From NCBI GenBank assembly GCA_945870885.1, contig CAMBTR010000003.1, positions 1 to 40,526 on the forward strand: a DNA stretch of 40,526 bases, read 5' to 3'. Of the stretch, positions 4,500-39,805 are shown piece by piece (positions within the stretch are counted from its first letter, which is position 1; each line of letters opens with the position of its first letter). Origin of the DNA: Chryseobacterium gleum (lineage in GTDB: Bacteria > Bacteroidota > Bacteroidia > NS11-12g > UBA955). The notes under the pieces were generated by a model. That model was not told the DNA's origin and did not search any database. It saw nothing but the letters and a program-made list of their open reading frames with translations. The position numbers were made by a program, and so were the translations under genes.

Positions 4500-4554
4500 T
4501 TTTCACAAAAAGCGAGAGGGCTCCCAGTGGGAGCCCTCTCGCTTTTTGTGAAAA
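4500..4554 (+). terminator. Rho-independent terminator after atpDC, 27-bp perfect arms
   Basis: TTTTCACAAAAAGCGAGAGGGCTCCCA-G-TGGGAGCCCTCTCGCTTTTTGTGAAAA; the right arm contains a T5 run. Confidence 0.88.
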
Positions 4555-7131: not shown

Positions 7132-7159
7132 GAAAGGCCCCGCTTTCGCGGGGCCTTTC
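7132..7159 (-). terminator. Rho-independent terminator downstream of the large T9SS gene (GAAA tetraloop on the minus strand)
   Basis: GAAAGGCCCCGC-TTTC-GCGGGGCCTTTC; minus strand reads GAAAGGCCCCGCGAAAGCGGGGCCTTTCTTTTTTT. Confidence 0.92.
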
Positions 7160-29797: not shown

Positions 29798-30937
29798 TCA
29801 AACCCCCAAATCCTTTTCAATCACTTGAATCACCTCATCGGCAACCCAAGAACTCAACGCAACACCCATACCGCCCATTCTCACCGCCAAACAAACCCTA
29901 TCACTATGCCATCCGATGATTGGATTCCTATTCTCATTCATCCCCATCACCCCAGACCATTCATAGTCAAACTCAACCGCGCGGCCCGGCAATACCACCG
30001 ATTCCAAATACGATTTTAAATACTCCCTAAATTGATGCGTAACCTCCATCTCCATCGTCTCCTCCCCCACAAAATCCAAATTCCGACCTCCGCCAATCAA
30101 TACCCGATCACCCCCCAATTCCCTAAAATAAATATATCCTTTGTCGGCATGAAAAATCCCCTCAAATGGCAACTTTCCCATCGATTTCGTCACAAAAACC
30201 TGACCTCTCGCCGGCGAAACGGCCAAATCAGGAATCAATCGCTTGCTAAAACCATTGGTACAAATCAACAACCTCGAACACTCCACCACCAACCCACTAG
30301 CCAACTGCAACCTCACAAAATCCGAACTTTCCTCCCAATCCAAAACACGCATCCCCTCATAAATTTCAACCCCGGCCTGCAAAGCATCTTCCCTCACCGC
30401 CTTATATAACAAATGACTCTGAAGTCCGCCCTCCAAAGGTGATAAAACACCCTCCTTCATCACGTTCATTCCCGCGGAAATGGTATCGCACAACTCAAAT
30501 GATTCTTTGCCATGAACCGGACGCAACATCGCATTCAAACCATTCAAATGATCAAAAACCCGAACTGCCTCCTCGGAATCGCTAGCAGAAAAAACCTCCG
30601 TCCCGCCAGTTGCCTGGAAACCAATCCTTGCAGCACCGTATCGACCCAACAATTTCTGAATCCCTAAATACCGCTTTTCATACAATCCAACCGCCTCCAA
30701 CTCGCTCGTCCGTGCGATTTCGTCCAGCATCTCCCCTGCACTGCCAAAACAAGCAAAACCGGCATTGCGCAAACTCGCCGCGTTACCCAAAGCATGTTCG
30801 TCCAACACCACAACCCTAGCAGCAGGAAAAGTTTCCTTAATCCGACGTGCACTTTGCAGCCCAACCAAACCCGCACCAATTATCACCCAATCAGCCTTGC
30901 CAAAGCCCTGTTGCTCCCAATAGCTGATTGTGTTCAT
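29798..30937 (-). CDS. FAD-dependent amino-acid-oxidase-type oxidoreductase (DAO family)
   Basis: ADWVIIGAGLVGLQSARRIKETFPAARVVVLDE; SLRNAGFACFGSAGE; C-terminal WSGVMGMNENRNPIIGWHSDRVCLAVRMGGMGVALS. Confidence 0.9.
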   Translation of the reverse strand: MNTISYWEQQGFGKADWVIIGAGLVGLQSARRIKETFPAARVVVLDEHALGNAASLRNAGFACFGSAGEMLDEIARTSELEAVGLYEKRYLGIQKLLGRYGAARIGFQATGGTEVFSASDSEEAVRVFDHLNGLNAMLRPVHGKESFELCDTISAGMNVMKEGVLSPLEGGLQSHLLYKAVREDALQAGVEIYEGMRVLDWEESSDFVRLQLASGLVVECSRLLICTNGFSKRLIPDLAVSPARGQVFVTKSMGKLPFEGIFHADKGYIYFRELGGDRVLIGGGRNLDFVGEETMEMEVTHQFREYLKSYLESVVLPGRAVEFDYEWSGVMGMNENRNPIIGWHSDRVCLAVRMGGMGVALSSWVADEVIQVIEKDLGV

Positions 30938-36724: not shown

Positions 36725-37498
36725 ATGACATGGATTGAGAATTTGATTCTCAGTGTGGTTGAGGGCCTCACCGAGTTTTTGCCTGTGAGCAGTACGGGTC
36801 ATTTAATGATCACCAGAGAACTCCTGGGCATGTCGCCCAGCGAACACGAAACCTACCTCATTGCCATTCAATTTGGCGCCATAGCCAGCGTACTTACTTT
36901 ATATTGGAAACGTTTCTTTTCAAAGGACGCTCTATGGGTCTATCCGATTTTGATCATGGGCTTTATCCCAGCGGCAATTTTGGGATTTTTATTTGATGAC
37001 TTGTTAGAGATGATGTTAAAAGCGCCTTGGATTCCGGGGCTCACATTGGTAATCTTTGGTGTTGTATTGTTATATATCGAAAAGATTTTTCCGCCTGGAG
37101 ATAAAAAAATATCTGACCTAAAATTTGCTGATGCAATTAAAATTGGGTTATTCCAGTGTTTGGCCATGATTCCTGGTGTAAGTCGTTCCGCTGCCACCAT
37201 AGCCGGAGGCTTACAGGGCAAGTTGACCCGTGCGGAGGCAACTGAATTCTCATTTTTATTGGCACTTCCTACCTTAGCGGCAGCGGGCGGATACAAGTTA
37301 TTAAAGCATTGGGAAGAGTTACAGCAGGGCAGCGAATTGGTCGACATAGCCATCGGCAATGTGATTAGTTTTATAACGGCTTATTTTGCGATTAAGTATT
37401 TCATTGGATATATTCAGCGGAAGGGATTTGCATTTTTTGGCTATTACCGAATTGTTATCGGATGCTTATTCTTGGCGTATTGGTTATTTTTGAAATAG
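36725..37498 (+). CDS. uppP: Undecaprenyl-diphosphatase
   Basis: VVEGLTEFLPVSSTGHLMI, AIQFGAIASVLTLYWKRF, MIPGVSRSAATIAGGLQGKLTRAEATEFSFLLALPT. Confidence 0.98.
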   Translation: MTWIENLILSVVEGLTEFLPVSSTGHLMITRELLGMSPSEHETYLIAIQFGAIASVLTLYWKRFFSKDALWVYPILIMGFIPAAILGFLFDDLLEMMLKAPWIPGLTLVIFGVVLLYIEKIFPPGDKKISDLKFADAIKIGLFQCLAMIPGVSRSAATIAGGLQGKLTRAEATEFSFLLALPTLAAAGGYKLLKHWEELQQGSELVDIAIGNVISFITAYFAIKYFIGYIQRKGFAFFGYYRIVIGCLFLAYWLFLK

Positions 37499-37589
37499 TG
37501 ATAGTAGGTTGAATCGATAAATGGTTTTGTCCCAGATTCAATTGCGATTGAAATATCTATAATAAATCTAACAAACTAAAATATTGAAA

Positions 37590-38282
37590 ATGCCTATCCC
37601 CTTGAAAATGCCCCGTCAATTATTGACGATTGCAATGGCTATAGGATTTCAGTTGATTGGCTTGCCCCGCGCAGCGGGGCAAGCCAATCAACTGAAGCTA
37701 TGTCGACTCAAATATAATGGCGGCGGGGATTGGTATAGTAGCAGAACAGCCTTGCCAAATTTGTCCCAATATGCAAATTCGCATATTGGGACAAATTTGG
37801 CGACCACCGAGGCGATAGCCGAGGTGGGGTCAACTGATATATACCGTTACCCTTTTTGCTTCCTTACCGGCCACGGAAACGTCGTTTTTTCAGACCAAGA
37901 AGCCAATAACCTAAGGGACTATCTCAAAGCCGGAGGATTCCTCCACATTTGCGACAATTACGGCATCGATCCGTTTATTCGCAGAGAAATGAAAAAGGTG
38001 TTCCCAGAACTCGCATTTCAGACAGTACCATTTAATCACCCCATTTATCATGGGCCCTACTCATTCAATAATGGCCTACCCAAAATACATCAACACGATG
38101 GAAAATCGCCAATAGGCTATGGCTTGTTCTGGGAAGGCCGACTCATATGTTTTTACGATTATGAATGCGACCTCGGCAATGGATGGGAAGATCCTGAGGT
38201 ATACAAAGACCCAATAGAAATCCGAGAAAAAGCGCTAAAAATGGGTTGCAATCTGATTTACCAAACTTTTATCGCTCAATAA
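37590..38282 (+). CDS. DUF4159 domain-containing secreted protein (ATG at 37590 or 37608)
   Basis: LCRLKYNGGGDWYSS, FLTGHGNVVFSDQEANNLRDYLKAGGFLHICDNYGIDPFIRREMKKVFPEL, FNHPIYHGPYSFNNGLPKIHQHDGK, GRLICFYDYECDLGNGWEDPEV. Confidence 0.9.
   Translation: MPIPLKMPRQLLTIAMAIGFQLIGLPRAAGQANQLKLCRLKYNGGGDWYSSRTALPNLSQYANSHIGTNLATTEAIAEVGSTDIYRYPFCFLTGHGNVVFSDQEANNLRDYLKAGGFLHICDNYGIDPFIRREMKKVFPELAFQTVPFNHPIYHGPYSFNNGLPKIHQHDGKSPIGYGLFWEGRLICFYDYECDLGNGWEDPEVYKDPIEIREKALKMGCNLIYQTFIAQ
37614..37628. repeat. Small perfect inverted repeat CGTCAAT-T-ATTGACG in the DUF4159 gene
   Basis: 7-bp arms, 1-nt centre. Confidence 0.75.
37648..37696. repeat. Perfect inverted repeat with 23-bp arms and 3-nt loop inside the DUF4159 gene
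   Basis: TTCAGTTGATTGGCTTGCCCCGC-GCA-GCGGGGCAAGCCAATCAACTGAA. Confidence 0.98.
37754..37801. repeat. Perfect inverted repeat with 21-bp arms and 6-nt loop inside the DUF4159 gene
   Basis: GCCAAATTTGTCCCAATATGC-AAATTC-GCATATTGGGACAAATTTGGC. Confidence 0.98.
37804..37827. repeat. Imperfect hairpin with GA/GA internal mismatch and GATA loop
   Basis: CCACC-GA-GGC-GATA-GCC-GA-GGTGG, starting 3 nt after the preceding palindrome. Confidence 0.6.
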
Positions 38283-38322
38283 GTCATACTCCGAATCTAC
38301 ACGAATTATACCGCAAAAAAGG

Positions 38323-38343
38323 CAATTTTAGGACCTAAAATTG
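38323..38343. repeat. Perfect inverted repeat downstream of the DUF4159 gene
   Basis: CAATTTTAGG-A-CCTAAAATTG; 10-bp arms; no U-tract. Confidence 0.85.
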
Positions 38344-38437
38344 GCGCAGAATTTAGAAGTTCCATTTGGGCCGCGAGGAATTCATCTTTAAAAAGCACGA
38401 ATCCGGCCAATCCGTTACGGAAAATAGCAACTTTAAA

Positions 38438-39805
38438 TTACTTCACCTCACGGATCCATACTTGTGGAACCGCAGATTCATAATAGAAAATCCCTTTATT
38501 CGCGTCTTTCTCCGAAGGAAAATCCTTCAAGAAAACATAATAACTCTTGTTGCTTGGGTCGTAGATTTTATAAGCAAAAACCCCTTTCTTGTAAAGATCC
38601 TTGATTTGCTTATTCGCCTTTGCCTCAAGACTATGTAAGCCGGCAACCAAATAGAATCCAGGTGATGGTTTCACTTTCTCAATTGGAGGTAATTTGATAC
38701 CTGAGGTATCCTTACCAGCTCCAAACGCTATCAAATCTTCCAAACTCGTAACCGTTACTTCCTTTTTATACGATGAACTATTCACATTAGCACCGCCTTC
38801 TGACTCACCATTCCCATTTTCACCAGAGCTGTTCAAATTTGCATCTCCTTCACCCTCTCCATCACCGCCATTGGAGCTATTTAAATCAGATCCATTTCTA
38901 GATCCGCCGCCCAATGCCGAAAACCCAATGTATGTGTGAAATTCATGTGAATTACCCAAAGCAATTCGTTGTGCACCTGTAGGCGTGTTATACGAGTACG
39001 ACACTTTAATGTCCGGCTGTGGTGAGAATCCAATATTACCACCAATCTGACCAATATCATTTCCGCCAATACCCATCCAGAATTTATCTTGGTAGTTAAA
39101 CGATGCATTATACTGGACCCTGTAATAATCAAAATTATAAGCCGATACATAAACCGATGGTTTCAACAAAATGTCATTCCCCAAATCAATATTGTATCCA
39201 AACAACAAACTCGCCTGCGATTGCATTTGATAAGATGCGGTGTAGTTATAATAGATATAGTCAAAACGAGGCTTACTCAATCGAGAAATCGCAAGCCCAC
39301 CAAACCACTTTTCTCCATTAATAAGAGCAGAAGCTCTCAAATCAGCACGAGTCACTGGGGGAGTTAACATCAACGATTTGATAATTGGGTCGTTGCCGCT
39401 AATGTAAACAGCCTTCGACATATCAAAGTTCTGCGACAATACGCCCACGCTCATTCCCAAATTCAAATTGGTAGTACTAGCCAAAGGCATGGAATATGCA
39501 TAGGTAGCATACGCATTGTGCATTTCTGAGAAGCCCACCCTTTCACGCATATAATACAAACCATACCCTGTATTCTTTGCAGGTACCGGCATCGCGATAT
39601 TCAACACCGTTGTTTGGGGACTACCCGGAACTGCAGAGAACATTTTATTGTACAACAAAGTAACATGTCCTTGTTCATGCGTATTCATGGCAGCAGGATT
39701 AATCATAGAATAATCCATGTAATACTGATCCAATTTCGCTCCCATTTGAGCGCTAACACTTCCAATGCACAAAGCAATGGCAGAAATGATGCTAATTTTT
39801 TTCAT
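38438..39805 (-). CDS. PorP/SprF-family T9SS membrane protein with C-terminal SPOR-like domain
   Basis: N-term AQMGAKLDQYYMDYSMINPAAMNTHEQGHVTLLYNKMFSAVPGSPQTTVLNIAMPVP...YGLYYMRERVGF; C-term SPGFYLVAGLHSLEAKANKQIKDLYKKGVFAYKIYDPSNKSYYVFLKDFPSEKDANKGIF. Confidence 0.9.
   Translation of the reverse strand: MKKISIISAIALCIGSVSAQMGAKLDQYYMDYSMINPAAMNTHEQGHVTLLYNKMFSAVPGSPQTTVLNIAMPVPAKNTGYGLYYMRERVGFSEMHNAYATYAYSMPLASTTNLNLGMSVGVLSQNFDMSKAVYISGNDPIIKSLMLTPPVTRADLRASALINGEKWFGGLAISRLSKPRFDYIYYNYTASYQMQSQASLLFGYNIDLGNDILLKPSVYVSAYNFDYYRVQYNASFNYQDKFWMGIGGNDIGQIGGNIGFSPQPDIKVSYSYNTPTGAQRIALGNSHEFHTYIGFSALGGGSRNGSDLNSSNGGDGEGEGDANLNSSGENGNGESEGGANVNSSSYKKEVTVTSLEDLIAFGAGKDTSGIKLPPIEKVKPSPGFYLVAGLHSLEAKANKQIKDLYKKGVFAYKIYDPSNKSYYVFLKDFPSEKDANKGIFYYESAVPQVWIREVK

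Follow-up and report, generated by a model that had tools for sequence, protein, structure and literature searches.

Two long palindromes lie within one protein-coding gene of an uncultured freshwater bacterium, and the chances are about even that they are DNA palindromes which recopy themselves over coding sequence and which, as we infer, are repeatedly opened or broken. Judged from genome sequence, hairpins of the loop type C(GNA)G number about a hundred per genome, are specific to a clade and are situated mostly within genes. This genome-wide class and its link to strand composition were both missed by an earlier note on this DNA. The window, i.e., the whole stretch of 40,526 nucleotides that was analysed, is one entire contig of a 1.82-Mb MAG (genome G000).

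The gene (37584-38282, + strand) is full-length and in frame, with a TTG start at 37584 and an in-frame ATG at 37590. Its product matches the DUF4159 profile PF13709 with E = 1.2e-62, which agrees with the open frame and normal DUF4159 protein described in the earlier note. Palindrome 1 (P1, + strand) has a left arm of 23 bp (37648-37670) at the end of the signal-peptide region, a GCA loop (37671-37673) with a C-G closing pair, i.e., C(GNA)G, and a right arm of 23 bp (37674-37696) that matches the left arm perfectly, exactly as first reported. Palindrome 2 (P2, + strand) adjoins P1 and is without a GNA loop. Its left arm of 24 bp (37754-37777) encodes PNLSQYAN and its right arm of 24 bp (37778-37801) encodes SHIGTNL; the 24 pairs with a single mismatched pair near the centre equal the 21-bp arms and 6-nt loop of the original description. 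Family-invariant residues are carried by both arms (N59, L60 and N65 on the left, the near-invariant T70 on the right), and residue conservation leaves undecided which arm is the older template.

Apart from a terminator-like hairpin at an ORF edge (7132-7159), P1 and P2 are the sole coding stems of at least 12 bp in the window, the remaining long stems being intergenic. One of the intergenic palindromes, at 4500-4554, has 27-bp perfect arms, a 1-nt loop and a terminator-like position, and exceeds the coding palindromes in arm length. Two smaller hairpins, which the earlier note had grouped with the long palindromes into a cluster of four, were dropped. The 7-bp arms at 37614-37628, which G003 lacks, are at chance level, as any 40 kb should hold about 2.5 stems with a 1-nt loop of this kind; the GA/GA-mismatch hairpin (37804-37827, + strand) has an identical counterpart in G006, where P1 and P2 are both missing, and is judged to be outside the system.

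The DUF4159 protein was matched in 13 of the 15 genomes of the genus. Both palindromes are present in G013 and G003; P2 is also present in G011 and G002, where contigs are broken or scaffolded at P1, and it is perfect in all four genomes. Records named among the relatives are Flavobacteriales bacterium Baikal-G1, a Loclat bin and UBA2234. P1 and P2 are absent from the other genus mates and from 74 other Bacteroidota orthologue loci. As the P2 region is equally long in outgroup orthologues, coding sequence was overwritten and nothing was inserted; with the unrelated arm sequences, this upholds the initial view that the repeats are not copies of an inserted element. Rickettsia palindromic elements, which likewise reside inside protein genes, are related inserted copies by which the protein is lengthened, whereas here the arms are unrelated, nothing is inserted and the pairing is renewed. 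The Rickettsia elements are described as decaying in PMC6649704.

Alignment of orthologues, suggested as a check in the earlier note, revealed that pairing is kept in sister species with compensatory changes. In P2, CAA/TTG is changed to CGA/TCG, AAT/ATT to AAC/GTT and TCC/GGA to TGC/GCA. In P1, where G013 and G003 retain the palindrome through a single compensatory pair, GGC/GCC is changed to GGG/CCC. Each of the paired changes listed is synonymous in one arm and an amino-acid replacement in the other, the usual pattern for compensatory changes in P1 and P2. Where this genome has GCA as its P1 loop, G013 and G003 have the exact inverse, TGC, and the loop was thus inverted in this lineage. Since the same palindromes occur with differing sequences in independent MAGs, they are not assembly artefacts. 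An origin by artefact or chance is scarcely credible, given that shuffles yield no such stems, even though some contigs do end at palindromes or fold back on them. One such contig, G011:C319 (L004:1-142), opens with a 71-bp perfect fold-back centred on P2 that extends beyond the conserved arms and is probably an assembly or amplification fold-back. Separately, a 48-bp perfect palindrome, GTTGTGCCCGAAACGGATATAAACGTTTATATCCGTTTCGGGCACAAC, is common to the starts of contigs C7 (L029:1-48) and C15 (L041:1-44) of G000, with differing flanks, and represents either the end of a repeated element or an assembly fold-back.

A palindrome scan of the host genome, also suggested at the outset, covered 1.09 Mb, of which 1.01 Mb is coding DNA. 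Nine coding stems scoring at least 14 were found, compared with none after codon shuffling, which bears out the claim that such long arms are beyond chance; one of the nine is probably a terminator beside a mis-called start. The count is 8 in 1.01 Mb here and 4 in 0.37 Mb of G003, while a total of 1.12 Mb from G004, G006, G007 and other Bacteroidota contains none. Further coding palindromes are found in a dnaE-type error-prone polymerase gene, hutI, a rhodanese-thioredoxin gene, a gene of unknown function, comEC and others. They are clustered, with three in dnaE, two in hutI and two or three in the L062 gene; the occurrence of two in one gene, considered striking at first, is therefore real but not unique to DUF4159. 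Four palindrome-bearing genes among about 14, namely those for ComEC, a Y-family polymerase, DprA and the dnaE-type polymerase (L076, L248, L249 and L028), have roles in recombination, translesion synthesis or the uptake of DNA; this is above expectation, as a post hoc observation. All genomes are MAGs with mechanically called ORFs, and loci within one gene are not independent.

The loops of these stems define a class. Among 3-nt loops of coding stems, 31 of 48 are GNA or TNC, where 6 are expected, and 26 of the 31 GNA-loop coding stems in G000 have a C-G closing pair. With synonymous shuffling that preserves protein and codon usage as the reference, perfect C(GNA)G coding stems with arms of at least 7 bp number 38 in 1.01 Mb as opposed to 2.4. 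For arms of 6, 7, 8, 9 and at least 10 bp, the observed counts are 13, 11, 9, 5 and 13, and the shuffled counts 4.8, 1.5, 0.6, 0.2 and 0.1; stems with the reversed loop, used as a control, fall off with arm length as chance predicts. P1 is the longest C(GNA)G example found, and the arms are otherwise arbitrary across the class. C(GNA)G stems of at least 7 bp were not found in G004, G006 or other Bacteroidota. The short pattern GGCC-GNA-GGCC occurs 150 times in twelve genomes of the genus, compared with 5 for the reversed control, and once each in G004 and G006. In G009, G010, G001 and other genera the class was checked by this short pattern alone; in genus g8 of the same family (G035, G036 and G037), 25 copies were counted versus 1 reversed.

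In DNA, C(GNA)G minihairpins are extraordinarily stable (PMC4686876). In phage N4, the C:G closing pair and the loop G and A enable short hairpins to extrude at physiological supercoiling (PMC4496689). The N4 virion RNA polymerase promoter hairpins share the C:G-closed loop with 5′G and 3′A, features that P1 displays and P2 does not. The N4 hairpins, however, are phage promoters with partly fixed arms; here the arms are arbitrary and lie mostly in coding DNA, and membership in this promoter type is therefore not claimed.

Palindromes outside DUF4159 are also kept in relatives with compensatory changes. In 11 stems compared across as many as five species, Watson-Crick pairs make up 710 of 747 and 19 of 186 stem columns are compensatory; of the remaining pairs, 5 are G·U, 9 are A·C and 23 are of other kinds. 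Thus there is no G·U excess, which selection on RNA would tolerate, and this points to DNA. The bearing is on mRNA structure selected as an attenuator, RNase site or translation gate, a further suggestion of the earlier note. The fold of 37580-37840 is indeed very stable (12.7 s.d. below shuffles) and is early in the DUF4159 message, yet selection of this kind is highly improbable: besides the mismatch spectrum, GNA is on the sense strand in 22 and the antisense strand in 9 of the G000 stems, stems are located anywhere in genes, and an Rfam search gave generic hairpin matches only, far below threshold. Nor do the coding palindromes resemble Rho-independent terminators, as they are within genes, A/C-rich downstream and without a T tract at a transcript end.

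Changes at several pairs are seen in dnaE stem 1, where four adjacent compensated pairs differ between G000 and G010/G012, and in stem A of the gene of unknown function; the GCA/TGC spacer inversion is found also at hutI stem 1 in G012. Template switching between arms is already known and leaves signatures like those found here (PMC8794818, PMC8604942, PMC7202029). These multi-pair changes, the spacer inversions and the DNA-stable loops support template switching, which had been the first hypothesis offered for the gene. Quasipalindrome correction likewise homogenises arms, produces paired changes of several bases, inverts spacers and is enriched for DNA-stable loops (PMC8794818, PMC8604942, PMC7202029). 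Its events are scattered and single, in contrast to the recurrent, long-lived set in one clade described here.

Coding palindromes of Nematomorpha mitochondria are a close parallel. As described in PMC6649704, they are perfect inverted repeats in protein genes whose arms both encode conserved residues; they are gained and lost between species, their pairing is actively maintained, and conversion by template switching has been proposed. The present palindromes are alike in having perfect arms in an intact conserved gene and pairing that is kept while the sequence changes. The Nematomorpha repeats reach 284 bp and belong to animal mitochondria, in contrast to arms of up to 24 bp on bacterial chromosomes. 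We know of no report of a constant C(GNA)G loop or a strand-composition flip for the Nematomorpha palindromes.

The strand-composition flip was first noticed in alignments: at coding stems the sense strand is G/T-rich on the 5′ side and A/C-rich on the 3′ side. Each strand is thus rich in G and T where it runs towards the hairpin. At DUF4159, the G/T-rich flank (36725-37647, + strand) spans the bacA gene and the start of the DUF4159 gene, and the A/C-rich flank (37802-39300, + strand) lies on the 3′ side. The flip is displayed at 13 of 13 coding stems in this genome and 5 of 5 in G003. Third-codon keto skew is +0.26 upstream and -0.18 downstream, in 12 of 12 genes (permutation p <= 5e-5). The flip decays over ∼1.5 kb on both sides and is superimposed on the background skew of each contig; the shift is mainly an increase in G with a decrease in C and A, and not purely C to T. 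It is far stronger at GNA-loop stems, intergenic ones included, than at other stems, and its size rises with arm length (0.02, 0.08, 0.11, 0.16, 0.18). As several tests were picked after the data had been seen, held-out C(GNA)G loci served as a guard, and 78 of 92 show the flip (45/53, 13/15, 5/5 and 15/19 in four genomes). It is absent in hutI orthologues without stems, and absent in two genus mates (G004 and G006) and other Bacteroidota, which also are without the hairpin class.

Elsewhere in the window, a gene at 29798-30937 has an extreme GC skew relative to its neighbours, -0.49 on the + strand, with a G-rich coding strand. The possibility that contig ends are hidden palindromes was rejected, as there is no composition flip at them; most assembly breaks thus have another origin, even if some contigs are indeed broken at such elements.

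Template switching might also be the whole explanation, making and keeping palindromes whose birth is favoured by a pre-existing flip, with no breakage involved. It accounts alike for the perfect arms, the changes at several pairs and the inverted spacers (PMC8794818, PMC8604942), and skew switches do occur without palindromes. Composition alone, however, predicts equal numbers of palindromes at switches of the opposite polarity, from A/C to G/T, and there are almost no stems at these; base composition alone is therefore not the cause. The scaling of the flip with arm length and its absence from stem-free hutI orthologues are additional reasons to regard a purely mutational curiosity as distinctly unlikely. 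Template switching alone leaves the one-polarity placement of the palindromes unaccounted for.

The favoured reading, in which recopying is combined with breakage, would proceed as follows. A hairpin would extrude from the duplex or form in single-stranded DNA, and a polymerase would copy one arm from the other by template switching. A mutation in one arm would then be either copied to the other or erased, such that the palindrome stays perfect; amino-acid changes forced by the opposite arm would be a side effect. The extruded hairpin would be repeatedly opened or cut, for example by a nuclease of the Mre11-Rad50/SbcCD type, and during resection or repair the strand running 5′ to 3′ into the hairpin would be left single-stranded on each side. 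Mutations of the exposed strand from A to G and from C to T could over generations render both flanks G/T-rich on the strand pointing to the hairpin. The polarity of the flip, read from base composition, would fit a two-ended break that recurs and at which 3′ single strands are exposed or repair forks converge. It is possible, though somewhat unlikely, that the C(GNA)G hairpins of this clade in general are sequence-independent elements serving as recurrent and perhaps programmed sites of breakage, recombination or fork collision, each marked by a kilobase-scale flip and each with arms kept matched through copying of one from the other, with the protein code overridden.

A candidate nuclease is encoded in G000 at L068:11583-14941, where a divergent Mre11/SbcD-like phosphoesterase (388 aa) lies beside a Rad50-like ATPase (>732 aa), a pair that we take to be YhaO/YhaN-like. 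Strong matches to the phosphoesterase are found in most genomes of genus g1, and none in the hairpin-free G004 and G006 or in the 41 genomes that represent the family's other genera. A search with an SbcC model gave weak matches only. G010 has palindromes without a strong match to the Mre11-like gene; in G003, an assembly that is 73% complete, hairpins are present and no such gene was found. Genus g8 has its hairpin excess without an Mre11-like gene, which speaks against a simple nuclease link, and hence breakage is still something that we infer. The association between nuclease and hairpins, drawn from gene content, would at most be loose. Enzymes of the SbcCD type open hairpins, and SbcCD cleavage of chromosomal palindromes would correspond to the fate proposed here, namely opening, break and resection (PMC6265447). 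The engineered Escherichia coli palindromes are hundreds of base pairs in length, compared with the short arms and the divergent, putative Mre11/Rad50-like pair of this genome. Loss of exonuclease VII was rejected as a cause, as xseA is missing in most genomes of the genus both with and without hairpins. Of G000-G014, just G010, G012 and G013 yielded xseA, the gene for the large subunit of this enzyme; complete assemblies without it include G004 and G007.

The main rival to breakage is a selected recognition site: a clade-specific protein would recognise extruded C(GNA)G hairpins as programmed recombination, fork-stopping or DNA-processing sites, selection rather than passive conversion would keep the arms paired, and the flip would follow from the activity. 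A loop and closing pair that stay constant while the arms are arbitrary, the restriction to a clade and the repair and uptake functions of several host genes listed above are all in keeping with this, as is the retention of stems together with the flip from G000 to G007 at 70% DNA identity, in an orthologue comparison that offered few informative pairs. The arms also evolve slowly: stem sites change less than flanking third positions, 39-46% of which differ among G000, G003 and G002. Either a double coding constraint or selection that favours the element may lie behind such slow evolution. Recognition by a dedicated protein is nevertheless rather unlikely, as the stems of a given gene come and go between species, those of DUF4159 being confined to the G000 subclade, and the paired changes replace amino acids. 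Nor was any candidate for the recognising protein found. REP/RAYT and IS200/IS605 systems have small palindromes recognised as DNA hairpins, but these are mostly extragenic, related in sequence and served by a Y1 transposase, of which there is none in this genus; the REP/RAYT Y1 transposase (PF01797) was rejected as a candidate (0 of 15 genus genomes). The earlier proposal of cruciforms handled by a protein is supported in part, by the loop type and by the flip.

These palindromes provide natural, chromosome-wide evidence that a DNA hairpin, rather than an RNA one, can lock two coding stretches together over long evolution. As a caution, paired amino-acid changes can arise from DNA copying and not from adaptation. 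The flip would be a footprint, readable from sequence, of repeated DNA opening or breakage, and hairpin breakage in wild bacteria would thereby become testable from sequence.
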